Below, piece by piece: positions 13,386 to 32,985 of a DNA stretch of 64,000 bases (positions within the stretch are counted from its first letter, which is position 1; every line of letters begins with the position of its first letter). The translations under genes were made by a program, and so were the position numbers. Origin of the DNA: Kozakia baliensis (GTDB lineage Bacteria > Pseudomonadota > Alphaproteobacteria > Acetobacterales > Acetobacteraceae); contig NZ_CP014677.1 of assembly GCF_001787335.1 (NCBI RefSeq), positions 1 to 64,000 on the forward strand. Direction: 5' to 3'. The notes beneath the pieces are model-generated. The model was not told the origin of the DNA and made no database searches. It saw only the letters and a list, made by a program, of their open reading frames with translations.

Positions 13386-13386
13386 T

Positions 13387-14523: not shown

Positions 14524-14565
14524 GAAGTGGCGACCTTTGCGTCATTCAATGCATTTATTTCGATT

Positions 14566-14577: not shown

Positions 14578-14597
14578 TGCTGTCAATAGAATAATTC

Positions 14598-14609: not shown

Positions 14610-14623
14610 AAAAGTCTGTTCTA

Positions 14624-15529: not shown

Positions 15530-15590
15530 AAGGTTCGCATTAGTAATGGTTTGGTTCCGAAACATATTGCGCTGCATGGAAATTTCGAAA

Positions 15591-16883: not shown

Positions 16884-17995
16884 GCATGTATCTCGACGGC
16901 CAAATCGTCCTTCCCGATCGCCTTTTGAGTGGGCGCGTCACTTTCGACGCCCAAATCCGTACGGTCGAACCACTCCAAAATGCTCCGCGCCGATATATCC
17001 TCCCCGGCTTCATCGACGGCCACGTCCATGGCGGAGACGGTGCGGACACGATGGACGGCGTGCAAGCCATTGAGAAACTCGCCCGCTTCCACCTCGCTCA
17101 CGGCACAACAACGCTGTTGCCGACCACCATCACCCGCCCATGGGCCGATGTCATGGCCGCTCTTGATGCCATCGCCACCATCATGAAAACCGGCGTTGAC
17201 GGCGGCCCACGCATCCCAGGCGCGCATCTGGAAGGCCCATTCGTCAGCCCCCACAAACTCGGCGCGCAGCCTCCCTTCGCCATCTCTCCAAGCCCAGACC
17301 GCGTGGCCGAAATTCTCGCCACCGACTGTGTGCGCGTCGTCACCCTGGCGCCGGAATTGGAGCATGCGGAAAGCGCCATCGCCGCCTTTTCCGAAGCCGG
17401 GGTGCGTGTCAGCCTCGGCCACACCACGGCGGATTACGAAACGGCGGAACGCGCCATTTGCGCCATCTGCGCTGCGGGCGGCACGCCAGGCGGCACACAT
17501 TTGTTCAATGCCATGTCATCCATCGAAGGCCGCAAACCCGGCCCCGCCGCCGCCTTGATGTGCCATGACGAGGCTTTTGCGGAGATGATCTTCGACACCC
17601 ATCACGTCCATCCGGCCAGCTTTCGCCTCGCTTCTCGCGTGATGGGCAACCGGCTCCTGTTCGTCACCGACGCCATGCGTGGCGCGGGCCAAGCGGACGG
17701 CCCCAGTCAACTCGGCGGACAGGATGTGTTGATCGAAAAAGGCGTTGTCCGTCTTCCCAACGGTACGCTCGCTGGAAGCGTCCTGACGCTGGATCAGGCC
17801 CTGCGAAACGCCGTGCAAAACGGTGCGTCCCTGCCCCAGGCCGCCCGTCTGGTCAGCACCAACGCCGCCACCTATCTCGGCCTGCACGACCGGGGCGAAA
17901 TCACGCCCAACCGCCTCGCCGATTTCACCATCCTCGACGAAAACCTACAGGTGCGAGAAGTCTGGGTCGGCGGAGAACGGCGCTTCGGTGTTTAA
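16880..17995 (+). CDS. nagA: N-acetylglucosamine-6-phosphate deacetylase
   Basis: 371 residues. GTG 16880 overlaps the permease stop (GTGA), and ATG 16886 with GGAG 11 bases ahead is equally plausible. Amidohydrolase motifs are complete: 'GFIDGHVHGGDGAD' (metal His), 'GAHLEGPFVSP' (metal Glu), 'SLGHTTADYE', 'GGTHLFNAMSS' (substrate His) and 'FVTDAMRGAG' (catalytic Asp). It removes acetate from GlcNAc-6-P to give glucosamine-6-P, the NagB substrate. With nagK and nagB this makes the intracellular pathway complete. Confidence 0.95.
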   Translation: MSMYLDGQIVLPDRLLSGRVTFDAQIRTVEPLQNAPRRYILPGFIDGHVHGGDGADTMDGVQAIEKLARFHLAHGTTTLLPTTITRPWADVMAALDAIATIMKTGVDGGPRIPGAHLEGPFVSPHKLGAQPPFAISPSPDRVAEILATDCVRVVTLAPELEHAESAIAAFSEAGVRVSLGHTTADYETAERAICAICAAGGTPGGTHLFNAMSSIEGRKPGPAAALMCHDEAFAEMIFDTHHVHPASFRLASRVMGNRLLFVTDAMRGAGQADGPSQLGGQDVLIEKGVVRLPNGTLAGSVLTLDQALRNAVQNGASLPQAARLVSTNAATYLGLHDRGEITPNRLADFTILDENLQVREVWVGGERRFGV

Positions 17996-18303
17996 CAGCT
18001 GGGCGTTCGGTTACATTTTTTAGCCTCGCTGATCCGTTCGGGTCCGGGAAAAGAAGGCAGTCATACTCATTCGCGGCCCATCATGACCTGTCCTGACCGG
18101 CTCAGTAGCCAGGAGGCGACCACCACTTGGCTGCTGCCTTTGTCGCATACAGAAATCCGGATTTTATAAGACAAATCCTGAGCCTAAAAATTTCCCAATC
18201 GGGCATATGACATTTCCCATATCGATATTGAAACAGTATGGAAATTACCCAAAGCAACGCCGTTTCGATAAGCGTTTGATCATTATGTAATGGAGGTAGC
18301 GTT
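17996..18303. promoter_or_regulatory. Intergenic region ahead of the LysR gene, with candidate operator
   Basis: About 310 bases without a gene. An imperfect inverted repeat lies at 18213-18244 (TTTCCCATA ... TATGGAAA), and TTTCCCA also occurs at 18191-18197. A dyad of this size just upstream of a LysR gene is where autoregulatory sites usually lie. GGAGG at 18292-18296 is the ribosome site of the LysR gene. Confidence 0.4.
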
Positions 18304-19200
18304 GTGAGATTACGTCAGATCGAAGTTTTTTATGCGATCATGACGACAGGATCGTTGCGGAGGGCGGCTGAAGTTTTGCATGTCTCGCAGCCCGCAGCGA
18401 GCAAAGTGTTGCGTTATGCTGAACAATCCTTAGGCTTCGCGCTGTTCGAACGCAAAGGCGGCCGATTGGTGCCGACGCGCGAGGCGCAAATCATGTTGCC
18501 GCATGTCAACGCCATATTCGGAAAACTCTCGGACCTTCGCCGCCTTACTCACAATCTTCGTTATGCGCGGGATGGTCATTCCATCAGCATCGGATGCGTG
18601 CCCAGTCTTGGGCTTAGCCTCATTCCACGTGTGATCCAGAACTACCGCGCCGAGCATCCCAATACCGAGATCACGATCGATGCGCTGCACGGTTCGGAAA
18701 TCGTGTCGCGGATTTTCAACCATGATCTCGATCTGGGTGTCGTTTTTGGCGATTACGCACGCGAAGGGCTGACGGCCCACCATATCGCTGATATCCCTCT
18801 GGTTCTGATCGACAAAGAACGCGAAGGTGGCTCTATCGCGCTGACGGATATCGACCCAGCCCGTTATCTGGGCCTTTCCGAAAAAGACCCGACCGCCGGC
18901 CTGCTTGAAATGGCGCTTGACGAAGCAGGCATCGAGGCGACGCCGGCCATCCGCGTACGGACGCATTTCATGGCGGCGGAATTGGTGCGCCTTGGCGTCG
19001 GATGTACGATCGTGGACGCGTTAACCGTACTGCATCATCCAGGTCTGCCGCGCCCCTGCACGCTTTCACCGCCGCTCAGCGTGACGTGCACCGTGTTGTT
19101 CCGCGCGGATTATGCGCTCTCTCATATCTCGCGCGATATTCTCAAGCTGATGCGCCGCGAATTGGGGGTCGATCTGCAAACATTGGCGACGATGGTTTAG
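18304..19200 (+). CDS. LysR-type transcriptional regulator
   Basis: 298 residues from GTG 18304, seven bases after a strong GGAGG. The N-terminal helix-turn-helix is typical ('IEVFYAIMTTGSLRRAAEVL', 'VSQPAASKVLRYAEQSLGF'), followed by the periplasmic-binding-like effector domain ('ISIGCVPSLGLSLIPRVI'). The overall pattern resembles the NocR/OccR branch that responds to opines and amino acid derivatives. It precedes the run of hydrolase and amino acid oxidation genes on the same strand, so it is the best candidate for their regulator. The effector is unknown. Confidence 0.87.
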   Translation: MRLRQIEVFYAIMTTGSLRRAAEVLHVSQPAASKVLRYAEQSLGFALFERKGGRLVPTREAQIMLPHVNAIFGKLSDLRRLTHNLRYARDGHSISIGCVPSLGLSLIPRVIQNYRAEHPNTEITIDALHGSEIVSRIFNHDLDLGVVFGDYAREGLTAHHIADIPLVLIDKEREGGSIALTDIDPARYLGLSEKDPTAGLLEMALDEAGIEATPAIRVRTHFMAAELVRLGVGCTIVDALTVLHHPGLPRPCTLSPPLSVTCTVLFRADYALSHISRDILKLMRRELGVDLQTLATMV

Positions 19201-19327
19201 CCTTAGGTTATCGGCTGTGCACATCTCGCAACGGGACATGCCTGCAAACTTCATGCTTTAATTTCATCTAAGCGCCAAAACCGGTCCTTTTTCGGAATGG
19301 CATGAGGGTTTGAATTTCGGAGCGGTT

Positions 19328-20935
19328 ATGTACAAGCGTCGCGGCCTATACGGAGCCGCCATTTTCACAGGAGCGCTCGCGCTCTCTCCGATGCATGAAA
19401 CCCGCGCGGCGGCGTTGCCACCAGGACTAACGGCGCAAGAGATCGACAAGACGGTAGAACGCGCGCGCGATGCCTTTCATGTGCCGGGCATTGCCGTCGC
19501 TGTCGTTCATGACGGCAAGATCGTCTTCAGTCATGGTTACGGGCGGCGCGCTGAAGAGCACCACAGCGCACTCGTGGACAGTCGCACCCTGTTCGCCATC
19601 GGATCGAACACCAAGGAATTCACCGCTACCGCTCTGGCGCAACTCGTGGATGCGGGCAAGCTGAAATGGGATGATCGTATCGTTGACCATATGCCGGAAT
19701 TTCGCGTGTCCGACCCGTGGATGACGCGTGAATTTCGCGTGTCCGACCTACTGACGCATCACAGCGGCATAGGGCTTGGCGCGGGCGACCTCATGTTGTT
19801 CTCACATAGCACGTTCACGCGCGCAGAGGTGTTGGCGGGATTGCCCCACATGCCATTTACCGCGCCGTTCCGCAGCGATTACGCTTATAATAATTTGCTC
19901 TATGTCGTCGCCGGAACACTTGTAGAGCGGCTAACGGGACAAAGCTGGGAAGATGTCGTCCAGCATCGTCTGATCGACGCGTCAGGACTGCCCGCATGTC
20001 AGTCCACACCGCCTTATAAAAGCGAGAGCGACGTTGCAACCGGCGAAGGTGGCAACGTTGCGTTGCCTGATAAAAGCGCGCGCCATATCCCGGCAGTCGC
20101 TCCGGCAGGCGGCATCTGGTGCAGCGTGGACGGGATGGCACGTTGGGCGCAAATCTATCTCAATGGAGGGCGAACGCCGGAAGGGAAGAGCATTTTCAGC
20201 ACCGAGAGCCGCGATACGCTCTGGTCGCCTCATGCTCTGCTGCCGTTGCCGGACATGGCGGCCGCCACCGGGACTCATTTCCGCGCCTATGGTTATGGCT
20301 GGTTCATGGAGGATTTCTTCGGGCACAAACGCGTCTGGCATACCGGCACTATCGACGGGATGGTAAGTTACGTCACGTTCCTGCCCGAGTTGAAAAGCGG
20401 CATCGTCGTGCTGACCAATCACGACGACCATAACGCGACCTACGCCATCGCAACGACGCTAAGCGCCTATATCGCGACCGGACACAGCAACAACTGGATT
20501 GATTTCTGGAAACGGAAGGAAGACGACGCGAAAGCGCAAGCGGCCAAGGAAACATTACAAAACGGCCCAGGCTCGCCTGCGCGACCGTTCATGAACCTTT
20601 CTGAAATGCAACAGCGGGATTATCTTGGCGATTATCGGGATGATTGGTGCGGGCTGATCACCGTCACCCGACGCAACCGCGATCTGCGGCTGACATTTTC
20701 CAAGGCCGATGGTTTGGCGGGCAGCATGTTGGCATTGCCGCATGATTTGTTCGTCGTCCGCTGGGACAATCGCGCGCAGGATGGCGAAGACGATGCCTAC
20801 GTTCAGTTCGAGCGCGATTTTTCCGGCAAAGTGACGGGCATGAGGATGCGGCTGGTAGGTTCGGATTTCAGCTTCGACGCCCAAGATTTGCATCCCCGGA
20901 AAATGGATGCCTCGGCAAATGAGTTCAGCCGATGA
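19328..20935 (+). CDS. Exported serine hydrolase, beta-lactamase/PBP-like (PF00144) with C-terminal DUF3471-like domain
   Basis: 535 residues from ATG 19328 (GGAG five bases upstream), with a signal peptide. The SxxK nucleophile motif is S-N-T-K at residues 93-96, the second motif Y-x-N lies in 'YAYNN' (about 185-189), and a K/H-T-G-like 'WHTGTIDGMVS' follows. The last 110 residues ('YLGDYRDDWCGLITV', 'VQFERDFSGKVTGMRMR') look like the DUF3471 beta domain. Relatives include D-aminopeptidases, D-amino acid amidases and esterases, and the neighbours favour D-amino acid-containing substrates. The last codon overlaps dadA (ATGA). Confidence 0.82.
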   Translation: MYKRRGLYGAAIFTGALALSPMHETRAAALPPGLTAQEIDKTVERARDAFHVPGIAVAVVHDGKIVFSHGYGRRAEEHHSALVDSRTLFAIGSNTKEFTATALAQLVDAGKLKWDDRIVDHMPEFRVSDPWMTREFRVSDLLTHHSGIGLGAGDLMLFSHSTFTRAEVLAGLPHMPFTAPFRSDYAYNNLLYVVAGTLVERLTGQSWEDVVQHRLIDASGLPACQSTPPYKSESDVATGEGGNVALPDKSARHIPAVAPAGGIWCSVDGMARWAQIYLNGGRTPEGKSIFSTESRDTLWSPHALLPLPDMAAATGTHFRAYGYGWFMEDFFGHKRVWHTGTIDGMVSYVTFLPELKSGIVVLTNHDDHNATYAIATTLSAYIATGHSNNWIDFWKRKEDDAKAQAAKETLQNGPGSPARPFMNLSEMQQRDYLGDYRDDWCGLITVTRRNRDLRLTFSKADGLAGSMLALPHDLFVVRWDNRAQDGEDDAYVQFERDFSGKVTGMRMRLVGSDFSFDAQDLHPRKMDASANEFSR

Positions 20936-22149
20936 AACAACGTATCGCGGTGATCGGTGGCGGCGTGATCGGGCTTTCCACCGCCTATGCCTTGATCCGA
21001 GCAGGTCACGATGTCACGTTGGTCGAACGGAACGAGGATGTCGGGCTCGGCGCAAGTTACGCCAATGGCGGTCAACTCAGCTATCGCTATGTCAGCCCGC
21101 TGGCCGATGCGGGCGTGCCGCGTCAGGCATTGCGCTGGATGCTGAAATCCGGCTCGCCGGTATCGCTTCGGCTCCGCGCCGATCCGAACCAATGGCGCTG
21201 GATGTTCTCATTCCTTTCGGCGTGCACCCATAAAACCAACCGCCAAAGCACGGCGGCGCTGTTGAGCCTGGCGCTTCGGGGACAGGACGAACTGGCGGCA
21301 TGGCGCGCGGAAGGGCTGGACGGCTTCATGTGGCGGCAGCCGGGAAAGCTCGTGCTGTATCGGCAGGATGCTGCTTTTCGCAAAGCTATGTTCTCCATTC
21401 ACGACGCCAAGCTGGAACGCGCCTTATCTCCAGCGGACTGCGCCAAGATCGAACCGGCGTTCGCTCATCTCGCCCCTGATTTGGCAGGGGGAATTTTCTC
21501 GCCCGAGGATGAAGTCGCGGACAGCCACCTTTTTTGCAAGGCGCTGAAAGCATCGCTGCTGTGCGAGCCACGGTTTCGCTACGTTCAGGGAAATTCCTCC
21601 CTGGCGCCGGATACAGAAAACCGCTGTGAATTGAAGGTGGACGGGCGTCGTTTCACGACGGACCTGATCGTACTCGCGGCGGGGTTGGGCGCGCGGGATA
21701 TGACTATACCTCTCGGTATCCATCTGCCGCTCTATGGACTGAAGGGTTACAGTCTTACGCTTCGTCCGTCTCCCGAGACGATGCCTTCCGTAAGCGTCAC
21801 GGATTACGACAACCGCGTCGTCTATGCACGCCTCGGCGATGCGCTTCGTGTCGCCGCAATGGTCGATATCGGTGCGGAAGACGCCACTTTCAATCCGACA
21901 CGCCTCGCCTCGTTACGTACGCTCGTCAAGCGAACGCTGCCTCACATTGCGGACGAAAGCGGCAACGATAATCCTTGGACGGGCCTGCGGCCCGCAACGC
22001 CCACAGGCGTGCCGATCATCGGACGGAGTCGCTATACCAATCTTCTGTTCAATGTCGGTCATGGCGCGCTTGGCTTCACGCTCTGCACCGGTTCGGCGGC
22101 TCGGATCGCGGATATAATCGGCCCCGCCGAGACCTATGGAGTTCAGTAA
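20932..22149 (+). CDS. dadA: D-amino acid dehydrogenase-like flavoprotein (DadA family)
   Basis: 405 residues. The FAD-binding loop 'IAVIGGGVIGLSTAYALIRA' is at the extreme N terminus, followed by 'ASYANGGQLSYRYVSPLAD', which matches the DadA signature A-N-G-G-Q-x-S. The C terminus has 'GLRPATPTGVPIIG' and 'NVGHGALGFTLCTGSA'. DadA enzymes oxidise D-amino acids to keto acids and pass electrons to the membrane quinone pool. It overlaps the upstream serine hydrolase by four bases and shares TAATG with the next one, so the genes are tightly coupled. DadA itself is cytoplasmic, with no signal peptide seen here. Confidence 0.85.
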   Translation: MKQRIAVIGGGVIGLSTAYALIRAGHDVTLVERNEDVGLGASYANGGQLSYRYVSPLADAGVPRQALRWMLKSGSPVSLRLRADPNQWRWMFSFLSACTHKTNRQSTAALLSLALRGQDELAAWRAEGLDGFMWRQPGKLVLYRQDAAFRKAMFSIHDAKLERALSPADCAKIEPAFAHLAPDLAGGIFSPEDEVADSHLFCKALKASLLCEPRFRYVQGNSSLAPDTENRCELKVDGRRFTTDLIVLAAGLGARDMTIPLGIHLPLYGLKGYSLTLRPSPETMPSVSVTDYDNRVVYARLGDALRVAAMVDIGAEDATFNPTRLASLRTLVKRTLPHIADESGNDNPWTGLRPATPTGVPIIGRSRYTNLLFNVGHGALGFTLCTGSAARIADIIGPAETYGVQ

Positions 22150-23420
22150 TGATCGTGCGTCTTCTTCAGCGCTGTGCCCCCGTTTTCTTGCTCGTCACAG
22201 GCGTGAGCCCGACGCTCGCCGCTGCACTTCCTTCTGCGGATGTCGGGTTGGAGCGAATCCTTACCCAAGGCGAGGCGCGCCCGCTGGCAGGCCTTGCGGC
22301 GATGCGTATTCGCAACGGAGAAATAGTCTATCGCTATTCCGCTGGGTTCGCACGAAAAAACGGTGCGGAGGTTATGCCTCTGCGGTCGGATACGCTGTTT
22401 CGCATCGCCTCCGTTTCGAAATTCGTCACGACCGTCGGCTTAATGAAACTGGTGGAGCAAGGGCGGATCAATCTGGATGCGGATGTGTCCCGCTACCTGG
22501 GTTTTCAACTTCGAAATCCCGACTTCCCTGACGTGGCGATCACGACGCGTATGTTGTTGAGCCATACGGCAAGTATCGCGGATGCGGACGATTACGTGAT
22601 TCCGGCGGATCATTCGGTTTCGGAATTCTTCGATCCATCACATCGATTAGGAATGGCGAATTATCATTTCATTTCCGGACACCGACCGGGATCGTGGTTC
22701 AGCTACTGCAATTTATGTTACGGGCTGGTCGGCACCATGATCGAGCGTGTGAGTGGAGAGCGTTTCGACCTCTATCAACAAAGGCACGTGCTGGGACCCC
22801 TCGGAATCGATGCGGGTTATGATCCGGCGCAGCTTCGTCACCCGGAACGGCTGGCGACCCTCTATCGCCACACCGATAAAGGTTATGAAGCCGTTAAGGA
22901 TGTGGCGGCCCAGTTTGTACCGGAAGCACCCACGAATTATCGGATTGGTACGAATGCGACGATCTTCTCGCCACAGGGCGGTCTGCGTATCTCGCTCGAT
23001 GGACTTTATCGGCTGGCGCAATTTGTGTTCGGGCGTGGGACGTTCAACGGCGTGACAGTGCTGTCGCCACGGACGGTTCAGACGATGCTGCAAACGGACT
23101 GGCGCTATAACGGGCATAATGGCGAGGGGACCTATCCTATCGCAAGCTACGGACTGGCGACGATTCAACTTATCGGCGCAAAAGATCCAACGGGACATCC
23201 CACGATCCCCTATCGTGGCTATCACGGCGGGCTTGTCGGTCATCTTGGCGATGCGTACGGCCTACGATCGGGCTTCTGGCTCGACCCTGCGACGCATGAT
23301 GGCTTCCTTTTTATCGCGGATGGTTTTCCCGAGGACGGAAAGGAGAAATCAGGTGATTTTTCATCCTTCACGAAAGTGGAAGAAGGAATCTTCGGCGTGC
23401 TTGCAGGAGCAGGCAAATGA
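22149..23420 (+). CDS. Second exported serine hydrolase, beta-lactamase/PBP-like (PF00144)
   Basis: 423 residues from ATG 22149, overlapping the dadA stop by one base; the longer frame back to 21975 lies inside dadA and is rejected. A signal peptide is present ('MIVRLLQRCAPVFLLVTGVS', then cleavage near 'LAAA'). SxxK is S-V-S-K in 'FRIASVSKFVTTVG', Y-x-N is in 'WFSYCNLCYGLVG', and the third motif is 'YHGGLVGHLG'. It lacks the DUF3471 tail of the first copy, so the two are not simple duplicates. A role as D-stereospecific peptidase, amidase or esterase is inferred from the neighbours. Confidence 0.82.
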   Translation: MIVRLLQRCAPVFLLVTGVSPTLAAALPSADVGLERILTQGEARPLAGLAAMRIRNGEIVYRYSAGFARKNGAEVMPLRSDTLFRIASVSKFVTTVGLMKLVEQGRINLDADVSRYLGFQLRNPDFPDVAITTRMLLSHTASIADADDYVIPADHSVSEFFDPSHRLGMANYHFISGHRPGSWFSYCNLCYGLVGTMIERVSGERFDLYQQRHVLGPLGIDAGYDPAQLRHPERLATLYRHTDKGYEAVKDVAAQFVPEAPTNYRIGTNATIFSPQGGLRISLDGLYRLAQFVFGRGTFNGVTVLSPRTVQTMLQTDWRYNGHNGEGTYPIASYGLATIQLIGAKDPTGHPTIPYRGYHGGLVGHLGDAYGLRSGFWLDPATHDGFLFIADGFPEDGKEKSGDFSSFTKVEEGIFGVLAGAGK

Positions 23421-25486
23421 AGGAGCGTGCGTTTTGGTATCGTGCCTGTGCCGGAGGTTTGTCGGTTCTTTGCGTCATGTTCGGAACGGCTCGCGCCAAT
23501 GAGGACGCGGCGCTGCGGTTGCGCCTTTCCGCGCTGCTGGCCATGCCCTTTGCCTCCGACATGGTGGGGGCGGCGCAAGCGAAGCGTTTGGCATGGGTGG
23601 AACGGCGCAATGGCGTGCGCAATGTGATGGTATCCGATGCCGGAGGCGTGCCGTACCAAGCATCGGCATATACGAAGGATGACGGGACGCCGCTTTGGGG
23701 GCTTGCCCTCGCTCCGGACGGTGGGACGCTAGCCTATGTGGAAGGCGGCGACCCGGAAGCGCTGGCCGACCCCGCCCCCAATCCTGATAACGCCGCGCGG
23801 CGACCGAAAGCGACCGTGCACGTCGTGCGGAACGGTAGCCAGAATATAGTCGCGGGGAAAGGATACCTCCCGGCATTTTCACCGGATGGGCGGCAACTGG
23901 CTTTCGCACGAAATGGGTCGCTTCTGATCGGGAATGCAGGTTCCTCCGCGCATACCGTAGTGACCACGGTCGGAACGATTACCGCGCTGCGTTGGTCTCC
24001 CGATGGGTCATGGATCGCCTTAGAAATCAATCGAGGTTCTCACAGTGTGATCGGGCTATGGGATATGCAGCGTGGGTTTTTACGCTTCGTATCGCCAGGA
24101 TTGGGGATCGACCGCTTGCCGAATTTTTCGCGGGATGGGCAGCAATTGGCTTTCGTCCGCGCGCAGGAGCCACCGTTGCTGACGCGCCCGGAAGACGGGC
24201 AATTCTGGTCGCTCCATCTTTACGATCTGGCCTCGGGTACCGACCAAACTCTCTGGACGCCGCCACGCGGTCAGGGAAGCCGGTTCTGGGGGGCAGACGA
24301 TCTTGGTCTCGAATGGACCGCGGATGGACGAATTCTGTTTCCCTGGGAGGGAAGCGGTTGGCTGCGGATTTGTGCCATCGATGTTCATAATGCCGCCGCG
24401 CCGCACTGCCTGACACCAGATGGCGCAGAAGTTTCGTCCTATCGGCTTTCGACTGACGGAAAATCACTATTTTATACGTCCAATGTCGGCGATAACGATC
24501 ACTGGCGCGCATGGTCACAAAGGCTGGACGGCGCGGTAACGGCTCTGACCGATAAGGAAGAAGAAGCCACGGCGCTCACCATGGCGGGAGGCGATATCGC
24601 GGTCATGACCACAAGCGCCACACAAACGGCACATCCGGTCATTTTTCATGATGCTCGACGGCGGACGCCTTCCCCCCCGGCTCTACCCGCAGGCATAAGC
24701 TTCACTTCACCGCAGAGCGTGCATTTTCGCAGCGAAGACGGTTTCAATATCCATGGGCAGCTCTTTCTGCCGCCTGCCGGTACGCACGGGCCGCATCCGG
24801 CATTGGTGTTCGTGCATGGCGGCCCACATCGCCAAATGCTACCGTCGTTCAATGCGATGGGATATTATTCCAATGCCTATCTGATGAATCAGACATTGGC
24901 GTCGCGCGGCTATGTCGTGTTGTCGGTGAATTACCGCAGCGGCACGGGATACGGTTTGGCGTTTCGAAATGCGGAAAGAATCGGAAGCACCGGAAGCAGT
25001 GAGTATCGGGATGTTCACGCGGCGGCGCTGTATCTTCGTGCCCGATCGGACGTTTCGCCCGGACACATTGGGATCTGGGGGGGAAGTTGGGGCGGTTATC
25101 TCGCAGGGCTGGCGCTAGCTCGCGATAGCGCATTGTTTGCCGCCGGGGCAGATTTCCATGGTGTTCATGACATGACGGAGCCGGATCATCCCGGCCTATC
25201 TCCAGAGGAAAACCGCAAAGCACACGAAACGGAATGGCGCTCTTCCCCGATCGCCGATATCGCGCACTGGCATTCACCGGTTCTGCTCATTCATGGCGAT
25301 GACGATCATGATGTGGAATTCGAGCAATCCGTACTGCTCGCGCAAATGCTCTCTGCACGCGGCGTCACGCATGAGGATCATGCTTTTCCTGGAGAGCGTC
25401 ATGAATTTCTACGCCAACAGGATTGGTTAACAGCCTATCTATGGATGAGTCGGTTTTTCGACCGATATCTTGGGAACGCCCCATGA
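23417..25486 (+). CDS. Exported S9 family (prolyl oligopeptidase-like) peptidase
   Basis: 689 residues, with ATG 23417 overlapping the previous stop (ATGA). A signal peptide is followed by a beta-propeller with repeated 'SPDG' turns ('PAFSPDGRQLAFARNG', 'WSPDGSWIALEI', 'FSRDGQQLAFVRA') and a C-terminal alpha/beta hydrolase. The Ser motif is 'GIWGGSWGGYLAGLA', Asp is in 'HGDDDHDVEF' and His in 'FPGERHEF'. This is the dipeptidyl/acylaminoacyl peptidase architecture. It would trim peptides in the periplasm, supplying short products to the other enzymes of the locus. Confidence 0.9.
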   Translation: MKERAFWYRACAGGLSVLCVMFGTARANEDAALRLRLSALLAMPFASDMVGAAQAKRLAWVERRNGVRNVMVSDAGGVPYQASAYTKDDGTPLWGLALAPDGGTLAYVEGGDPEALADPAPNPDNAARRPKATVHVVRNGSQNIVAGKGYLPAFSPDGRQLAFARNGSLLIGNAGSSAHTVVTTVGTITALRWSPDGSWIALEINRGSHSVIGLWDMQRGFLRFVSPGLGIDRLPNFSRDGQQLAFVRAQEPPLLTRPEDGQFWSLHLYDLASGTDQTLWTPPRGQGSRFWGADDLGLEWTADGRILFPWEGSGWLRICAIDVHNAAAPHCLTPDGAEVSSYRLSTDGKSLFYTSNVGDNDHWRAWSQRLDGAVTALTDKEEEATALTMAGGDIAVMTTSATQTAHPVIFHDARRRTPSPPALPAGISFTSPQSVHFRSEDGFNIHGQLFLPPAGTHGPHPALVFVHGGPHRQMLPSFNAMGYYSNAYLMNQTLASRGYVVLSVNYRSGTGYGLAFRNAERIGSTGSSEYRDVHAAALYLRARSDVSPGHIGIWGGSWGGYLAGLALARDSALFAAGADFHGVHDMTEPDHPGLSPEENRKAHETEWRSSPIADIAHWHSPVLLIHGDDDHDVEFEQSVLLAQMLSARGVTHEDHAFPGERHEFLRQQDWLTAYLWMSRFFDRYLGNAP

Positions 25487-25568
25487 ACAATGGTAATCAA
25501 TTCGGAACATCATCGCCAGACAGGTGTGCGGCGCTTCCTACAGGCTGGCGTTTCAAGGCGGAAAGAAC

Positions 25569-26795
25569 ATGAAGCGGCGCCAGCTTCTTATGGGTGGCGC
25601 GGTTCTTGGCGCGCAGACTTTTCTCCAACAGGTGCATGCTCAAGGCAGCATGCCGCCAATGCCCCTTATCGATCCTGCGCTACCCTTGAAGCGTTTCGTT
25701 GCCGCACCAGACCAAATCACGGCACTTAAGGTTTGCTTACGACCGTTCCGCGCAGCGGGACCGCGACTGGATGTGGAGCCTGTCGCAGGAAAGACCGTCA
25801 TCCATAATTACGGGCATGGCGGATCGGGATGGTCGCTGTCATGGGGAGCGGCGAACATTGCCGTCGGCAAGGCTGCTGCGACGCTCGAGAAAAAAATCGC
25901 GATTATCGGCTGTGGGATTATCGGCCTGACATCGGCGCTGATGGCGCAACGTGCGGGTTTCGATGTCACGATTTATACACGAGATATGCTATTCCAGAGC
26001 CGTTCCGTGCGTGCGAACGGAAGCTGGACACCGGATTCGCGTATCGCACTGACGGAACAGGCCGGGCCACAATTCGGTGATTTATGGGAGCAGATGGCGC
26101 GTTTCTCATGGTCGGCCTACCGTGATTATCTAGGGCTGCCCGGTAACCCGATTGATTTCATCGATACTTATGTCCTGTCGGACAAAAGAGAGGAAGATAA
26201 GTTTCACGAGGAAATCGATCGGTCGAAGCCAACCTATGCGACCACCGGGAAACCCCAGCAGGGCGCGGAATTTGCGCGTTATTACAGCCGAGTCACCGAC
26301 ATTATCCCGGCTTCGCTCCCCCTGGACTCAGGTCATACACCCTTCGGTGTAGCCTCTGCTAAACGCGTGCGACGAATGATGTATAATTTCGGGGCATACG
26401 GACACCTCCTTCTTTCGGAGTTTCATCAAGCAGGCGGGCGTATCGTGATGCGGGAATTTCACGCGCCGAGCGATTTGGCGGCTTTACGGGAAAAAGTCAT
26501 CATCAACTGCCCCGGCTATGCGGCACGCGATTGGTGGCGGGATAAAAGCATCATTCCGGTGCGTGGGCAGACAGCATGGTTGCCGCCCGATCCTACGCTA
26601 CATTACGGCCTGGCCTATCGAGGCGCGGAGATGCTGTCCAAATCTGACGGCATCATGATCCAGGGTTACGATCTTGATCATCTTGGCGAAATGAGCGGGG
26701 TGGGCAATAGTTTCGAGCATCCAGACCGGATAGAGGCTGAACATGCGATCAATATATTCGCCGGTCTCTTCGCACGCGCTCCGACTCAAGGTTGA
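25569..26795 (+). CDS. Tat-exported D-amino-acid-oxidase-like flavoprotein with permuted motif order
   Basis: 408 residues from ATG 25569 (upstream GGCGGAAAG). The N terminus 'MKRRQLLMGGAVLGAQTFL' looks like a twin-arginine signal. The element that is normally C-terminal in DAO-family enzymes (L-R-P-x-R, then 'VIHNYGHGGSGWSLSWG') sits at residues about 57-93, before the Rossmann FAD loop 'IAIIGCGIIGLTSALMAQ' (about 111-127), which is normally the N terminus. The protein ends where the usual C-terminal element would begin. I infer periplasmic D-amino acid or amine oxidation, with electrons to the cytochrome c encoded next, whose reading frame it touches. Confidence 0.75.
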   Translation: MKRRQLLMGGAVLGAQTFLQQVHAQGSMPPMPLIDPALPLKRFVAAPDQITALKVCLRPFRAAGPRLDVEPVAGKTVIHNYGHGGSGWSLSWGAANIAVGKAAATLEKKIAIIGCGIIGLTSALMAQRAGFDVTIYTRDMLFQSRSVRANGSWTPDSRIALTEQAGPQFGDLWEQMARFSWSAYRDYLGLPGNPIDFIDTYVLSDKREEDKFHEEIDRSKPTYATTGKPQQGAEFARYYSRVTDIIPASLPLDSGHTPFGVASAKRVRRMMYNFGAYGHLLLSEFHQAGGRIVMREFHAPSDLAALREKVIINCPGYAARDWWRDKSIIPVRGQTAWLPPDPTLHYGLAYRGAEMLSKSDGIMIQGYDLDHLGEMSGVGNSFEHPDRIEAEHAINIFAGLFARAPTQG

Positions 26796-26800
26796 TCCTG

Positions 26801-27229
26801 ATGAAACGTCATCTGATTGCGCTGGCCTTGTCCGCTACCGTTGTGGCCTTGCCCTCCGCAGGCCATACGGGTTCTCGGCGCGCTTCTTTCACTACCGCCC
26901 AGGCTGACGAAGGTGCCGAACTTTATCGGAACGCCTGCGCGACCTGTCACGGTGCCGCGTTGCTTGGCAACTGGGAGACGCCCCCACTGACGGGGCAGTT
27001 CGTCGCGAACTGGGCTGGAACGCCTCTTTCAGTGCTCCACGATTACATTACCCGTGCGATGCCGCAGATGGCTCCGGGAACGCTAGAGCCAGAAGAGACG
27101 ACGGCAATTATAGCATTCCTTTTGCAGCAAAACTGCATCAAATCGAGCCGCAGACCTTTGCCTGAAAAATCCGCCGAAATGCGGAAGATCGTATTTCCGA
27201 AACCCGCTTTAGCGACCTGCGGGCGCTAA
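26801..27229 (+). CDS. Small mono-heme cytochrome c
   Basis: 142 residues from ATG 26801, five bases after the DAO-like gene stop, with AAGG nine bases ahead. It has a signal peptide ('MKRHLIALALSATVVALPSA'), heme motif 'CATCH', and Met ligand in 'AMPQMAPGTL', then a class I cytochrome end ('IIAFLLQQN'). Two extra cysteines lie in the C-terminal tail (after 'QQN' and near the end), which could form a disulfide. It is probably the electron acceptor for the adjacent exported flavoprotein, in line with periplasmic oxidations in acetic acid bacteria. That partnership is an inference from gene order. Confidence 0.85.
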   Translation: MKRHLIALALSATVVALPSAGHTGSRRASFTTAQADEGAELYRNACATCHGAALLGNWETPPLTGQFVANWAGTPLSVLHDYITRAMPQMAPGTLEPEETTAIIAFLLQQNCIKSSRRPLPEKSAEMRKIVFPKPALATCGR

Positions 27230-27231
27230 AG
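27207..27231. terminator. Hairpin at the end of the cytochrome c gene
   Basis: Perfect 8-bp inverted repeat CTTTAGCG / CGCTAAAG with a 9-base loop, overlapping the stop codon. It lies between convergent genes (cytochrome c and the minus-strand ester hydrolase). No T-run follows, so it may be a weak bidirectional terminator or only an mRNA end structure. Confidence 0.35.
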
Positions 27232-27260
27232 CGTAACGGGCCGGACATCCTGCCATTGTA

Positions 27261-29177
27261 TCAAAGGGCAGGCTTGGTTCCGCCATGTATTTCTAGCCAG
27301 CTTCCCGCGATATCGACCGAAATTGTCGCAGGTTTATAAGCTTCCTTCGGTGCGATCATAATATTATCGACGTAGCTTTGCGGATTACGGTCGTAGAGCG
27401 GAAACCAACTCGACTGAATTTGAATCATGATCCGGTGTCCAGGCAGGAAAGTATGGTTCACCATTGGCAGCCGCACTGGATAGATTTGTTTTGTATTCTC
27501 TGGAACTGGCTCGGGATGTTCGAAACTTTTCCGGTAACGTCCGCGCAGAATGTTGCCCGAAATCATCAATTGATAGCCGCCCATCGCCGGTTGCTCCGCA
27601 ACCTCGTCTGGATAAACGTCGATCAGCTTCACCACGAAATCACCATCCGTACCCGTGGTCGCCGCAGTCAGATGCATGAGCGGTTCGCCCGTGACGGTGA
27701 ACGGTTTTTTCAGAACATCGGAGGTAAGAGCCAAAACATCTGGCCGTGCCGCCGCATTGCGTTGGTCGGTTGCAAGCCACCAGCGCCATTCCGAATCCGG
27801 TTGCCCTTTCGAGACGACCGGACGCGGAACATAGGGAACGGGATGATCCGGATCGGAGACATAGCTCAGTTGTCCGGAATTGGCAGCAGGTTTGCCGAAG
27901 CCCAGCCCATGATTTGATTGCAGATGTAGCGTGACGCAATGCTGGTCGCATTCCGGCGGAGGAAGGGATTCCATACTCTCCCATTCATTCTCGCCGGAAC
28001 GATAAGCCGTGACGCGCGCGGGCAGAGGTGTTGCATCGTCCTTGAGATAATGCGCCAGAAACGGTGTCAATACATGCTTGCGGAAGTACAGTCCTGTATC
28101 GGAGTGCAACTCCACAGGGCCGAGTGTGCTGGCCGTGTGAATTTCGCCGCCATGATTCCACGGCCCCATTGCCATCCACAGATTGGACCGCGCGGCGGGT
28201 TGCTTGCGCAGTGCATCATAGAGCGCAACCGCGCCGTAATTATCTTCCTGGTCCCACAGGCTATGAACCAGCATGGTTGGGACTTTCAGCCCTTCTTTTG
28301 GAAGAAGCCGATCAAGCGCCTGCACCTGCCACCAGGAATCATAGGCGGGATGTGCGAGAATTTGCCGGAAGAAGCCGATTTGTTCCATCCCACGCGACTT
28401 GCCGACCGCTCCGGCCGAGACGCCATTCAGGAAAAGCGTGTAGGAATCATAGGCGTTACTCCACCACTGGGCAGTGTTTTTCCGTGTCGCCCCCTGATTG
28501 TAGATATAGGGCAGCATTTCTTCGCGAAACGCGCCGTTATGAAACCAGTCGTCACCCATCCAACCATCGACCATCGGGTTCATCGGCACCGAAACCTTCA
28601 GCGCCGGATGCGGATGGAACAATGCGGTGATGGCGGTATATCCATCATAGGAAACGCCAAGGATGCCGACTTTGCCGTTACTCTCCGGAACGTTGTGAAC
28701 CAGCCACTCGATAGTGTCCCATGTATCCGTGCTTTCATCAACAGCCGTGCCATTTAGCGGACCGCGCATGGGACGGTTCATCACGAACTGACCTTCGGAA
28801 CCATATTTCCCACGAATATCCTGGAGAACACGGATGTATCCACCAGCGGTGATGACATCGGGCATGTTGTCATATCCAGGCAGGACCGACGGCATGTGGT
28901 TGCTCGACCCTAGCGATGCCATATGCGCGGCATTATAAGGCGTGCGCGTCATTAACATTCCGGCGTTGTGCGCATCTTTGGGAACGAGGATGACGGTATG
29001 GAGCTTTACCCCATCCCGCATTGGAATCATGACGTCTCGGCGTGTATAATCGAAAGAAGCGTCGGCGACGTGAAAGTCAGTGGGCATATCCGCAGCAATC
29101 GTGCCCATGGCTTGTCGCGCCCAGGCATGCTGCGAAAGTGCCAGTGCGCACGCCGATACCATAAGAATTTTTTTCAT
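27261..29177 (-). CDS. Alpha-amino acid ester hydrolase-like enzyme (CocE/NonD, S15 superfamily)
   Basis: 638 residues with a signal peptide ('MKKILMVSACALALSQHAWA'). The Ser motif is 'GILGVSYDGYTAI' (G-x-S-Y-x-G). 'SLWDQEDNYGA' supplies the catalytic Asp plus the Glu-Asp of the carboxylate cluster that binds the substrate alpha-amino group in Xanthomonas and Acetobacter alpha-amino acid ester hydrolases, and 'MGPWNHGGEIH' gives the catalytic His. 'MGDDWFHNGAFREE' matches the family's other acidic site. Known members hydrolyse or transfer D-phenylglycine-type acyl groups, including beta-lactam side chains. It follows the TonB receptor gene by 78 bases on the same strand. Confidence 0.88.
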   Translation of the reverse strand: MKKILMVSACALALSQHAWARQAMGTIAADMPTDFHVADASFDYTRRDVMIPMRDGVKLHTVILVPKDAHNAGMLMTRTPYNAAHMASLGSSNHMPSVLPGYDNMPDVITAGGYIRVLQDIRGKYGSEGQFVMNRPMRGPLNGTAVDESTDTWDTIEWLVHNVPESNGKVGILGVSYDGYTAITALFHPHPALKVSVPMNPMVDGWMGDDWFHNGAFREEMLPYIYNQGATRKNTAQWWSNAYDSYTLFLNGVSAGAVGKSRGMEQIGFFRQILAHPAYDSWWQVQALDRLLPKEGLKVPTMLVHSLWDQEDNYGAVALYDALRKQPAARSNLWMAMGPWNHGGEIHTASTLGPVELHSDTGLYFRKHVLTPFLAHYLKDDATPLPARVTAYRSGENEWESMESLPPPECDQHCVTLHLQSNHGLGFGKPAANSGQLSYVSDPDHPVPYVPRPVVSKGQPDSEWRWWLATDQRNAAARPDVLALTSDVLKKPFTVTGEPLMHLTAATTGTDGDFVVKLIDVYPDEVAEQPAMGGYQLMISGNILRGRYRKSFEHPEPVPENTKQIYPVRLPMVNHTFLPGHRIMIQIQSSWFPLYDRNPQSYVDNIMIAPKEAYKPATISVDIAGSWLEIHGGTKPAL

Positions 29178-29255
29178 AACCGTTCCAAAAGGTAGATAGC
29201 GCGCGATCGGAATGCCTTTCTGTCGCTCCCGACCGCCTTACATCGTCATATCGTG

Positions 29256-31748
29256 TCAGAATTCGGCGGAGACGGTTCCATAATATTGGCGTGGCGCCGC
29301 GACGAATAGATTGGCGTTATTGTCACCTGAAACCGAGGCCGCCCCGTAAATGCCACCGATGTAGTTGGTGTCGAACAGGTTGGTGATGCCGAACGTCGCT
29401 TTCAGATTTTGCGCAAAACCGATCTTGCCGAAATTATATGCCAAATTAAGGTTCGCGAGCCAATAGGGCGGCACCGTCTCGTCATTGAGGTAGGTCATCG
29501 GACGGGAACTGATATAGTTTACGTTGAAGTTGAACATGGCGCGCCGCCAAGTATAGTTCAAATTGGCTTTATACATGAACTTCGGGTAGTAGACTTGTCG
29601 TTTTCCCTTGAGGCTATAGGTGCTTCCACCATAATTGATGGACTCCGTTTGGTATTTTGCGTCGTTCCAGCTAAAGCTGTTGGTGATTTCAAGCCCTTTC
29701 ACCGGACGGATCGTCGCCATCGCGTCCGCGCCGTTCATGGTCTCCCGTCCGACATTCAGATAGGCGCTGCGTGCGTTGGCGGAGCTTCCTTCTGTAATCG
29801 CCGCTAGGCGGTTGTAATAATCAGTATGGTAGAAATCGGCGCTGCCTGAGAAGAAGCGTGAATCATAGCGGTAGCCGATGATATAGTTCCACGTTCTTTC
29901 GGGTTTGAGGACGTTCTTGTTCGCGTCGAAAACCGTCTGTGCCGATTGAGATGAGTTGCCGAGACCGCCCCAAGGCGTTGCAGAGGAAATTTGCGAGTAA
30001 TAATCGTAGGCGCGCAAATTTTCGGCGATATCCCAGTAGATCTCGTGATGCCCTAGGAAGTGATAATCGAAATTGAAGTGTGGCAGGAATGCGCTGGACG
30101 CTGAAAGCGTGCCGTTCGCTGGATGACGATAATAGGTGTTCCAACCTTCATCTGTGAGTTGATTGGTAAAATCGTTCTTCGTGCCGCCATGCGTCGTCTG
30201 CGTGAGTGATTTAAATCCGGCCAGCAGCGTCATACCTGGCATGATCGTCCACCGATCCTGAAGGAAAAACTGAAACGTGTTCGTGTTATATGTATCCTCG
30301 AACCAGGTATGTCCCGTGCCGCGTTTGAAATCCGACATCCAATTATGAGCGCTCGTCAGACCATCTTCATAGAGGCGGGTGTCATAGACCCAGCGATTGT
30401 TTTCATACCAAATGCCGGTCTCAATATGGTTGTTATGCGGTGCTTCGATTGAGAATTTCTGTGTAAAGCCGAGACGTCGCATATCGGCATGCGCCATCTG
30501 CAACGCCATCGGAACCCCGGAAACCGAACCGTCGGCCAACAGTGTGGGTGTCCCATAGCTGGGAGATGTCACGAAATTATTCGTGCCGCCATAAAGGCCG
30601 CTGCTGACATTCCCATAAGCCACCGTATCCGAATGCACGTTATCGAACAGATCGAAATGCCCAGTTACCGCCGAAAGATAGGTGCGCTGAACCTGCGAGG
30701 CATCCCAAGCATAATCGCCGATTTCGTCATTCGACAAGATGCCCTGATAGCCCGGCGGAACATCCGAAGTATATTGTCCGTAATACGCCCATTGCTTGGC
30801 TTTCTCGTAATCTGGTTTCAGATAAGTCGCATCGCGGCCTAACCTCCGCCAGATGTTCTTGGTCAGGGTCATATAATTCGCCTGAGAGAAATTTCCGTAG
30901 CCAAAAAAGCCTGTAATCTTGCCGCGTTCTCCTACGGGCTGCACAATTTTCGCATCGGCCTGCAACTCGTTCTGATAACCGGCTCCTTTCCAGACGTTCG
31001 TGTTCGTCCGGGCAAAGGACGCGTAGAATTTCGTGCCGGTAGGGTTTAGAATACCGCTATCGGCCCGGGCATAGGTTCGATACGCGTTGTAGCTGCCGAA
31101 AGTCTGGCTGAGTTTGCCACCCGCCTTATCCTTCGGATCGGATGATGTATAGGTCATCGCGCCGCCAAGATTTTGAGCGGAGAAGGAGTCCAGCGCACCC
31201 GCGCCTTGCGACATCGTCATCCCGGCGACATCGTCCTGAATCATGGCCTGAGTGATCGACACGCCGTTATAATTGGCGAAGCCTTGTGTCCCAAGCGGAA
31301 TGCCGTCCAGCGTTGCGCCGATCTGCATCTGGGTGAAGCCGCGCACGTAGAACGTATTACCGTAGGTGTCGAGGCCGAAAGCATCCGTCGATGTGAAATT
31401 CGCGCCTGGAGTGGTCATGGCCAAAATCTGCATCGGATTGGTTCCTTCAACGAACCGATCCATTATCTTGCGCGTCACGGCGACTTCCGGTCCATGACTG
31501 CGAACGCGCTGCGCGCTGACCGAAATGGACTCGCGATCCGTGCTTTCGATCGCATCGTGACGATGGGAAATTGCCGCACCAGTTGCCATGCGGGAAGCGG
31601 CATGACGGGCCTTCGCGGAGTGACGCGGCTTCGTCGCAGCGTCCGCACTAACCGAAACCGCGACAATGCTCGCCAATCCAGCAATGCTCGTCGTGAATAA
31701 AAAACGAGATCGTCGCCCCGGCTTACCGGTCGATTTCAGGACAAACAT
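29256..31748 (-). CDS. TonB-dependent outer-membrane receptor (peptide/amino acid derivative locus)
   Basis: About 830 residues from ATG 31748, chosen over the longer frame because a GAGG precedes it and a signal peptide follows ('SRFLFTTSIAGLASIVAVSV'). The plug domain is clear ('TFYVRGFTQMQIGATLDGIP', 'GMTMSQGAGALDSFSAQNLG'), and the barrel ends 'YYGTVSAEF' with terminal Phe. It is upstream of the ester hydrolase on the same strand and end-on to the D-amino acid locus, so it is a candidate importer for its substrate. Its promoter region is squeezed between 31749 and an IS3 remnant. Confidence 0.82.
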   Translation of the reverse strand: MFVLKSTGKPGRRSRFLFTTSIAGLASIVAVSVSADAATKPRHSAKARHAASRMATGAAISHRHDAIESTDRESISVSAQRVRSHGPEVAVTRKIMDRFVEGTNPMQILAMTTPGANFTSTDAFGLDTYGNTFYVRGFTQMQIGATLDGIPLGTQGFANYNGVSITQAMIQDDVAGMTMSQGAGALDSFSAQNLGGAMTYTSSDPKDKAGGKLSQTFGSYNAYRTYARADSGILNPTGTKFYASFARTNTNVWKGAGYQNELQADAKIVQPVGERGKITGFFGYGNFSQANYMTLTKNIWRRLGRDATYLKPDYEKAKQWAYYGQYTSDVPPGYQGILSNDEIGDYAWDASQVQRTYLSAVTGHFDLFDNVHSDTVAYGNVSSGLYGGTNNFVTSPSYGTPTLLADGSVSGVPMALQMAHADMRRLGFTQKFSIEAPHNNHIETGIWYENNRWVYDTRLYEDGLTSAHNWMSDFKRGTGHTWFEDTYNTNTFQFFLQDRWTIMPGMTLLAGFKSLTQTTHGGTKNDFTNQLTDEGWNTYYRHPANGTLSASSAFLPHFNFDYHFLGHHEIYWDIAENLRAYDYYSQISSATPWGGLGNSSQSAQTVFDANKNVLKPERTWNYIIGYRYDSRFFSGSADFYHTDYYNRLAAITEGSSANARSAYLNVGRETMNGADAMATIRPVKGLEITNSFSWNDAKYQTESINYGGSTYSLKGKRQVYYPKFMYKANLNYTWRRAMFNFNVNYISSRPMTYLNDETVPPYWLANLNLAYNFGKIGFAQNLKATFGITNLFDTNYIGGIYGAASVSGDNNANLFVAAPRQYYGTVSAEF

Positions 31749-31981
31749 CGCCGCCTCTCTTAAAAAAAACTTAAGCTGGATAGACGTTACGTATCCGATA
31801 TATTGCACGTCAACAGCCAAGTTTTTTTGCAAGTGATAGCTTAAGGTTAATCGGCCATCTAAAGATTACGCAGCACAAGTTCCCTGAACGGAAATCTGCC
31901 TTATTGGAGTTAACTTGGCATCGTCGTTTCGGTTTTCACCGATCAATGCATCTGGGTGCATATAAGAGCCTTCGCCGGAAG

Positions 31982-32985
31982 TTATCGACAAGGGTGGTAA
32001 GGCCGATCTTCATTTCCGTCCATCTGAGATGTGGTGGCGCAGATTACCGAACGGGAATATTCTGTAGCGAAAGTTTCGCAGCGGTTTCGGACCCTGTCCG
32101 AATGATGAATAAGGCCTGCCCTTGGCTGACGCATCGTCAATGCCTGACGTAAAGCCGCCAATGGCAGGCGACGAGGCAGACGATCGTCCACAGCCCAACC
32201 AACGATCCGGCGGGAAAAGAGGTCGAGCATGACAGCCAGATACAGTCCCCCTTCGCATGTCCAGCAATAGGAAATATCGACACCCCATTTTTGGTGGGGC
32301 GCTGTCGCAGCGAAATCCTGATCCAGCAGATTGGCCGCGACCGGGCTGGCATGTTCGCTGTCGGTCGTGCGCTTGAAACGGCGTTTCTGCCGCGCTTTGA
32401 GGCCGTTCTCACGCATCAGGCGGGCCACGCGCCGCCTGCCGATGGCAAGGCCGGCTTCCCGCACTTCATGCGTCATGCGCGGGCTAGCATAGGTCTCGTT
32501 CGAGGCCGCGAAGGCCGCGCGCGCATGCGCCAAGAGCACCATGTCCTGTCGTTGCCGTCGGCTGGCCGGGCGGGATCGCCACGCAAAATAGCCACAGCTG
32601 ACACCGAGAACGCGACACAGACGCTCGGCGGGGAACGCTTCTTTCGCCTGATCGATGAACTTGAACCTCACCGACTTCCCTCCTTGGCAAAAAAAAACCG
32701 TAGCCCGTTTGAGGATGTCACGTTCCTGTTTCAGGATATCGTTCTCACGCCGCAAGCGCTTGAGTTCCGCCGTCATGTCCTCAGGCGCCTGACCATCCGC
32801 CCCATGATCGCCGGTCGCCAGATCCTTCGTCCGGCCCAGCCAGCGGGTCAACGTCGATAGGCCGATCCCAAGATCGTCCGCCACCGCCCGCCGCGTCCGA
32901 CCGCTTGTGTGCGCTAGGCGAACCGCCTCATCCTCAAATTCTCGCGTAAAACGTTGCGGCCCCCGTCACGGACAGAGCCTTTCAT
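31982..32985 (-). pseudogene. Truncated IS3-family transposase (OrfA and OrfB in one frame)
   Basis: The OrfA helix-turn-helix ('GLSTLTRWLGRT') and leucine zipper ('ELKRLRRENDILKQERDILK') run directly into OrfB ('FIDQAKEAFPAERLCRVLGV', 'QKWGVDISYCWTCEGGLYLA', 'LIHHSDR') through a run of about nine T on the coding strand near 32690-32697. With one T fewer OrfA would stop after 'FFAKEGSR'. After the second catalytic Asp (HHSDR) the sequence leaves the family, so the last third with the catalytic Glu is missing. The N terminus is also split: 'MKGSVRDGGR' (from 32985) is out of frame with 'REFEDEAVRLAHTSG'. Non-functional. Confidence 0.85.

Follow-up and report, generated by a model that had tools for sequence, protein, structure and literature searches.

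Eukaryotic and fungal D-amino acid oxidases (DAOs) and D-aspartate oxidases (structures 1kif, 7ct4 and 6rkf; Pfam family PF01266) carry the loop that binds flavin adenine dinucleotide (FAD) at the start of the chain, and the RP strand with the carboxylate-binding arginine and the YGHGGxG loop at its C-terminal end. In the case of bacterial DAOs, GxRPxR and YGHGGxG have been named as conserved elements, and the main text of the same 2022 survey gives just over ten bacterial DAO genes as known, all of them from one phylum, printed as 'Acinetobacteria' (PMC9844085). Circular permutation is mentioned neither in the main text of that survey nor in the consulted parts of PMC5169069 and PMC6131576, and no description of a permuted DAO was found among the papers listed in the open-access literature searched, which were judged by titles and the first parts of abstracts, subscription literature being mostly outside this scope. 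Here we describe a flavoprotein gene and the adjacent cytochrome c gene from a 64,000-nucleotide stretch of Kozakia baliensis DNA (assembly GCF_001787335.1, contig NZ_CP014677.1, positions 1 to 64,000; hereafter, the window means this whole stretch). Results of our analysis indicate that the flavoprotein is almost certainly a natural circular permutant of the DAO fold, and that it is a member of a large permuted family that extends beyond the single gene reported in a preliminary description of the window.

The window flavoprotein shares with the eukaryotic and fungal enzymes the fold, the FAD loop, the RP strand with the carboxylate arginine and the YGHGGxG loop, and it also has elements of the GxRPxR/YGHGGxG type of the surveyed bacterial DAOs. 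It differs from the former in the rotated order of motifs, the location of the new termini in the substrate domain, the presence of a twin-arginine leader, the loss of the Tyr228 equivalent, the presence of a cysteine two residues before the arginine, and the neighbouring cytochrome c gene. DadA, a dehydrogenase that feeds respiration, belongs to the same superfamily, and a DadA-like protein is itself encoded in the window, in canonical order and with no leader seen. The flavoprotein matches this DadA-like protein only over residues 96–151, and its score with the DadA model NF001933 (26.3 bits, residues 109–145 only, vs. the cut-off of 383) places it outside the DadA family. Proteins of the monomeric sarcosine oxidase family have a conserved cysteine that some profile alignments put at the equivalent place, but they are oxidases of canonical order, and the HNYGHGG loop is absent in the sarcosine-oxidase-like proteins examined. 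The periplasmic FAD dehydrogenase and cytochrome c pairs of acetic acid bacteria likewise combine an exported flavoprotein with a c-type cytochrome partner; in pairs of the gluconate 2-dehydrogenase type, the flavoprotein has the unrelated GMC fold and the partner is a multi-heme protein. The window protein is a DAO of rearranged order, with an electron acceptor that is probably new.

The open reading frame (ORF) of the flavoprotein begins with the ATG at 25569 and ends with the stop codon at 26793–26795. In its translation, the element that closes canonical DAO chains (RPFR and HNYGHGGSGWSLSWG, residues 58–93) is located ahead of the FAD loop GCGIIG (114–119), that is, L57-R58-P59-F60-R61 and H79-N80-Y81-G82-H83-G84-G85-S86-G87-W88-S89-L90-S91-W92-G93 are upstream of G114-C115-G116-I117-I118-G119, of which G114, G116 and G119 are invariant in all 85 aligned homologues. 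Both elements of the canonical layout (FAD loop N-terminal, RP/YGHGG C-terminal) are therefore present, in the reverse order, and the motifs and coordinates given for them in the preliminary description agree with the translation. A normal second copy of the element at the C-terminus, which that description had named as evidence that would speak against its reading, was looked for, and no second GHGG element was found in the remainder of the flavoprotein; the chain stops at residue 408, and the ATG of the cytochrome gene (26801) is 5 bases past the stop codon.

Comparisons with rotated sequences are consistent with this order. In a phmmer search of the Protein Data Bank (PDB), residues 54–106 of the native sequence matched residues 324–376 of the Rasamsonia DAO 7ct4, which is its C-terminal end (independent E-value, i-E, 4.3e-8), and residues 108–345 matched residues 24–249 at the start of that chain, the latter match being weak when taken alone (i-E 0.068). 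A rotated query composed of residues 107–406 followed by 46–106 (361 residues) matched 7ct4 in a single stretch (query 5–355 to chain 27–370) and mammalian DAOs in single stretches spanning the new junction (e.g., 178–351 to 151–324 of 2du8), while the whole-sequence E-value for 2du8 improved upon rotation from 3.1e-7 to 1.6e-9. Similarly, PF01266 matched the native protein in two partial stretches (75.3 bits), and the protein rotated at residue 107 in one stretch covering positions 1–350 of 353 (87.8 bits); both scores are above the gathering cut-off of 27.9 and place the protein in the DAO/PF01266 superfamily. Six control rotations, in which residues 45–404 were cut at 70, 150, 200, 250, 300 or 350, scored 69.2–80.2 bits; five of them were split into two stretches and the one cut at 70 gave one stretch (1–317). 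Thus, a profile comparison in the permuted order, proposed in the preliminary description as a check, yielded a full-length match.

The structure prediction proposed at the same time gave a confident model. The AlphaFold2 model of the flavoprotein, obtained with 85 family sequences, had a mean pLDDT of 91.8 and a pTM of 0.88, and its N-terminal element (residues 41–106) was modelled at pLDDT 95–99, with strands 52–61, 69–72 and 75–79 and helix 91–103 in the displaced part. The top 33 rows of a Foldseek search with this model were all DAO and D-aspartate oxidase chains. VIA-align placed residues 108–402 on residues 1–268 of pig DAO 1kif (Z 19.6, rmsd 2.7, 248 aligned residues) and residues 105–403 on residues 1–264 of human D-aspartate oxidase 6rkf (Z 20.7, rmsd 2.8, 254 residues). 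The parts left unpaired, namely DAO beyond residue 268 and the model before residue 105, are each other's counterparts by sequence. The three-dimensional DAO fold is thus found directly over residues 108–402, and residues 45–106 are placed in it by inference. The possibility raised earlier that the N-terminal element fails to complete the DAO fold did not materialise as far as the confidence of its modelling is concerned, while a direct superposition of the element on DAO is not part of this comparison; together, sequence and model strongly suggest that the displaced element occupies its usual DAO place in three dimensions. In the model, the old termini are bridged by a short linker between helix 91–103 and strand 109–113, and the new termini are located between helix 387–402 and strand 52–61. 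The model of a distant member from a viral contig (L116, which shares 27% identity with the window protein and has no visible leader), obtained with 24 sequences (pLDDT 86.6, pTM 0.88), repeats this picture, with its residues 81–337 aligned to residues 1–271 of 1kif at Z 20.9. The earlier claim of a circularly permuted DAO is therefore supported by sequence rotation, by Pfam and PDB matches, and by two AlphaFold2 models.

The permuted order is not a peculiarity of the window. A profile search of genome contigs matched at least 592 stretches, 563 of which encode a relative by tblastn; the best 80 were examined, and the stretches outside them may include canonical enzymes. Together with three further relatives from viral contigs (L115–L117), they make 83 loci, and in all 83 a single GHGG-type motif is followed by the FAD loop. 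Because the profile search favours permuted proteins, a less biased test was made with a DNA pattern for HNYGHGG alone. The pattern was present in 19 of 398 Pseudomonadota genomes (one of them that of the window), and every one of these 19 hits was permuted. Since homologues share the order in 83/83 loci and 19/19 pattern hits, the permutation is not a matter of chance. The permuted gene is found, among others, in Acetobacter, Komagataeibacter, Gluconacetobacter, Gluconobacter, Sphingomonas, Sphingobium, Novosphingobium, Caulobacter, Bradyrhizobium, Dyella, Xanthomonas, Acidobacteria, Nonomuraea, Niveispirillum, and an Opitutaceae metagenome-assembled genome (MAG). With the window's own genome included in each case, 35 of 200 genomes of its order matched at E ≤ 1e-40 and 13 of 289 genomes of its class matched the profile at E ≤ 1e-30. 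Plasmids searched with the rotated query gave five records, of which two were known permuted genes and three were short matches annotated as FAD-dependent oxidoreductase; a library of viral folds gave only weak FAD-oxidoreductase matches. No canonical bacterial DAO was obtained with the rotated query in plasmids or with the HNYGHGG pattern in the 398 Pseudomonadota genomes. Two contigs of one genome (C72 and C74 of G066) hold only C-terminal pieces of a permuted gene (query 268–405), that is, a broken or split copy.

A Tat (twin-arginine translocation) signal had also been proposed for the flavoprotein. Its sequence begins with a twin-arginine leader, MKRRQLLMGGAVLG...QVHAQG (MKRRQLL start), as read by eye, and the residue aligned with R4 is arginine in 79 of 85 homologues, the other six having a gap there, which upholds that proposal; a pair of arginines is found near the start in 78 of 83 loci. 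On this basis, the flavoprotein is very likely exported by the Tat pathway. The presence of a Tat leader is in itself no indication of a cytochrome acceptor, because most of the loci that encode the leader do not have a neighbouring cytochrome gene (see below). In three permuted relatives, L116 (3895–4980), L034 (4977–6071) and L128 (1360–2448), no leader was seen and a glycine replaces Cys56; L116 and L128 keep a tyrosine at the Tyr228 place. These three proteins are probably cytoplasmic and nearer to ordinary DAOs. A tie between Cys56 and export was considered and rejected, as Gly-type members carry RR leaders too.

The second gene of the pair (26801–27229) encodes, as stated in the preliminary description, a mono-heme cytochrome: its product has a cytochrome c domain match (PF13442, 1.2e-12) and the CXXCH motif CATCH at residues 46–50 (26936–26950), and its AMPQMAPG sequence is by eye a likely Met ligand loop. 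The distribution of this gene was followed by tblastn with the window cytochrome as a query, a search that divergent cytochromes could escape. Such a cytochrome was found in 26 of the first 32 homologous loci (L001, L004–L034), in none of L029–L034, and in 15 of 83 loci of the L035–L117 set. In a quick IQ-TREE tree of 115 rows (142 before removal of near-identical ones; SH-aLRT support only, midpoint root), from which L117, regarded as a duplicate of L116, was left out as it was from the neighbour scan, the cytochrome pairing changes once: all 24 rows of one clade (support 99) have it, and it was found in none of the 91 rows outside this clade. Among these 91 rows, 17 have fewer than 1000 bases downstream, and L116 (252) and L053 (318) have too few to judge. 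A scan for CXXCH proteins shorter than 350 aa, encoded on the same strand within 1.5 kb, added only L055 and L075 among the 67 unpaired loci of L035–L116. Taken together, these counts indicate that the cytochrome characterises one clade, with members among acetic acid bacteria, sphingomonads and MAGs, rather than the family as a whole. Within this clade, the intergenic gap is -4 or -1 bases in all seven loci for which the neighbour scan gave the cytochrome. The linkage in 24/24 rows strengthens, for this clade, the earlier suggestion of a dehydrogenase rather than an oxidase, a function that we still infer, and electron transfer from the flavoprotein to its partner cytochrome appears likely.

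Conservation in the active site was counted in the alignment of 85 homologues. Residues R58 and G85, which we take to be equivalents of DAO Arg283, the residue that binds the substrate carboxylate, and DAO Gly313, are both invariant (85/85). The invariance of the Arg283 equivalent supports an alpha-amino acid as a substrate, and a D-amino acid seems somewhat more probable than other candidates. Cys56 is located two residues ahead of Arg58. On the tree, the state of this position changes once, with Cys in 103 rows and Gly in 10 (a row with Ala and an unread row were omitted), although the tree program warns of long branches that meet at the Gly-type groups, including the group of L116, where this change is located. 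Covalently bound FAD has been described for monomeric sarcosine oxidase and for its relative FsqB (Cys-414) (PMC6222107). In our hhalign comparisons, the rotated profile placed Cys56 on the cysteine of sarcosine-oxidase-like proteins with a probability of 95.4 (five proteins, from the set of L153–L156 and L162) or 95.5 (eight, pooled with L150–L152). We presume that the aligned cysteine is Cys315, to which the flavin of sarcosine oxidase is presumably linked. The chances that Cys56 binds FAD covalently appear about even as judged from these alignments. In a comparison of the rotated profile with profiles of L150–L164 and DadA, matches were mostly at the FAD loop.

The coordinates of the genes and of the elements of the flavoprotein are listed in the table.

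Table. Features of the window in the region of the permuted flavoprotein gene
Feature	Position	Strand	Basis
LysR-type regulator, head of the gene series	18304..19200	+	PF00126/PF03466
Beta-lactamase-fold serine hydrolase (PF00144) with DUF3471	19310..20935	+	class C beta-lactamase, AmpH and D-aminopeptidase models match weakly, all far under cut-off
DadA-like D-amino acid dehydrogenase, canonical order, leader not seen	20932..22149	+	PF01266 9.8e-60; NF001933 361 bits, just under cut-off 383
Second beta-lactamase-fold hydrolase	22155..23420	+	PF00144 1.4e-42
S9-type peptidase, Dpp5-like	23417..25486	+	PF00326 1.1e-34; NF053518 7e-24, far under cut-off
Circularly permuted DAO-family FAD protein, 408 aa	25569..26795	+	translation; PF01266; AlphaFold2 model
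Twin-arginine (Tat-type) signal peptide, residues ~1–25 (RRQLL, hydrophobic stretch, VHA)	25569..25643	+	read by eye from sequence
Displaced element, residues 45–106, corresponding to the canonical DAO C-terminal end (strand with the carboxylate-binding Arg, HNYGHGG loop, final helix of the FAD domain)	25701..25886	+	phmmer to 7ct4; model strands and helix
Cys56, Cys in 83/85 homologues; candidate covalent FAD attachment	25734..25736	+	column counts; hhalign
Arg58, equivalent of DAO Arg283, invariant 85/85	25740..25742	+	alignment columns
Residues 107–402, counterpart of canonical DAO up to residue ~268 (beginning of the FAD domain, and substrate domain)	25887..26774	+	VIA-align to 1kif
FAD dinucleotide loop GCGIIG, residues 114–119	25908..25925	+	sequence; conservation
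Mono-heme c-type cytochrome, 142 aa	26801..27229	+	PF13442 1.2e-12, PF00034 5.1e-9

The region 18304–27229 is a series of genes of one direction with overlaps or with gaps of at most 109 bases, in the order LysR, PF00144 with DUF3471, DadA-like, PF00144, S9 peptidase, flavoprotein, and cytochrome. This gene context would fit the scavenging of cell-wall peptides or of peptides containing D-amino acids. The locus of Gluconacetobacter dulcium (L091), which belongs to the cytochrome clade, and two Gluconobacter loci without the cytochrome (L089 and L102) also have a LysR-PF00144-DadA module close to the permuted gene; the three loci represent two different branches and differ in the orientation of the module. 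In three Dyella loci (L101, L104, L107) PF00144-like genes follow the permuted gene. RidA removes imines formed in the oxidation of amino acids. A gene of a RidA-like exported protein (by eye) was considered as a linked one and was not accepted: it occurs in only three of 83 loci (L043, L048, L049), a few genes off and on the other strand. No match to Rfam was found over 17900–32000, and promoter and terminator scans gave results at the level of shuffled sequences.

Just upstream of the LysR gene, positions 10385–17995 encode a GH20 hexosaminidase (PF00728), NagA (TIGR00221, over cut-off), and, by eye, ROK-type proteins and a sugar transporter, which looks like a set for N-acetylglucosamine or cell-wall scavenging beside the D-amino acid genes. 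On the opposite strand, a CocE/NonD hydrolase gene (TIGR00976, over cut-off) and a gene of TonB-dependent receptor (PF00593) at 27261–31832 converge on the gene series; they possibly serve the uptake of peptides or esters. The minus strand also contains, next to the receptor gene, an ORF that looks by eye like an IS3-type transposase (31982–32884), and a gene of a large TPR/porin protein that is, again by eye, similar to the cellulose-export protein BcsC (39572–43273).

The history and function of the flavoprotein may be pictured as follows. The break in the ancestral DAO chain falls within the substrate domain, between the helix corresponding to DAO residue ~268 and the strand with the carboxylate-binding arginine, and a linker of some five residues (104–108) connects the old ends, from the final FAD-domain helix to strand 1. 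Because the Tat leader is at the new N-terminus, the flavoprotein would be exported folded, with its FAD. In the clade of the window protein, electrons would pass from FAD to the adjacent mono-heme cytochrome c and further to the respiratory chain. The substrate would be a D-amino acid, perhaps freed by the neighbouring hydrolases from peptides that contain D-amino acids, and Cys56, located at the place of the conserved cysteine of sarcosine-oxidase-like proteins, may hold FAD covalently. To the combination of permutation, Tat export, and electron transfer to the cytochrome we assign a probability of about 0.68. The broader proposal of a widespread, undescribed bacterial family of natural DAO permutants, one clade of which would have turned into a periplasmic D-amino acid:cytochrome c dehydrogenase that works independently of oxygen and whose FAD is possibly bound to a cysteine, is put forward tentatively, at somewhat less than even odds.

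Several of our results weigh against this interpretation or parts of it. Rotation brought no gain in E-value for 7ct4 (7.6e-14 native, 3.3e-13 rotated) or 9vpf (1.5e-9 and 1.9e-9). The notion that there is no true permutation, and that an unrelated N-terminal extension with a similar motif, or an artefact of assembly or frame, is observed instead, found no support. The match of residues 54–106 to residues 324–376 of a DAO, the full-length match after rotation and the conservation of the order in all loci and pattern hits refute this notion, and we give it practically no weight. Such a cytochrome is absent beside the permuted gene in 67 of 82 loci, and the nearest solved relatives are oxidases; both would suit an oxygen-using oxidase of permuted, exported DAO fold, with a cytochrome co-transcribed for another purpose. 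The confinement of the cytochrome to one clade, in which every row has it, and the gaps of -4 or -1 bases make such an oxidase improbable. Moreover, the LysR-PF00144-DadA module is near only one of 15 cytochrome-bearing loci, in the sequence around them, and the DadA of the same gene series could already serve the catabolism of D-amino acids.

The identity of the substrate is also affected by the active site. At the place of DAO Tyr228 the window protein has Glu354, and the position, aligned by hand, varies among Cys-type members (S 45, N 11, A 7, L 6, Y 6, and G 5 of 85 rows), while all 12 non-Cys rows of a second alignment have tyrosine there; owing to this lack of conservation, ordinary D-amino acids may no longer be the preferred substrates. 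The permuted DAO fold could then act on another amine or imino acid, such as an N-substituted amino acid, an opine or a peptide terminus. The resemblance of Cys56 and of the surrounding motif to sarcosine oxidase relatives points in the same direction, as does the alignment of opine dehydrogenase and sarcosine oxidase chains to the model at Z 14.7–15.6. In contrast, DAO and D-aspartate oxidase structures rank higher (Z 18.3–20.7 vs. 15.7 and below), and the Arg283 equivalent is invariant, so that we consider another substrate class less likely. As to the covalent attachment of FAD, the match of Cys56 lies in the tail of the profile alignments, the proteins matched are all below the sarcosine oxidase cut-off, and hhalign against L150–L152 alone aligned only the end with the FAD loop.

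DAO represents a textbook flavoenzyme fold, and a natural permutant shows that this fold tolerates a cut in the substrate domain and the joining of its old ends. As an ordinary profile sees the permuted protein as two fragments only, the permutation may explain the under-annotation of DAO-like enzymes in Pseudomonadota. If the interpretation proposed here is true, electrodes and sensors could profit from such a D-amino acid dehydrogenase with its connection to cytochrome c. With one clade that has the cytochrome gene and many branches that do not, the family as sampled here opens a way to test how an oxidase fold may turn into a cytochrome-linked dehydrogenase.

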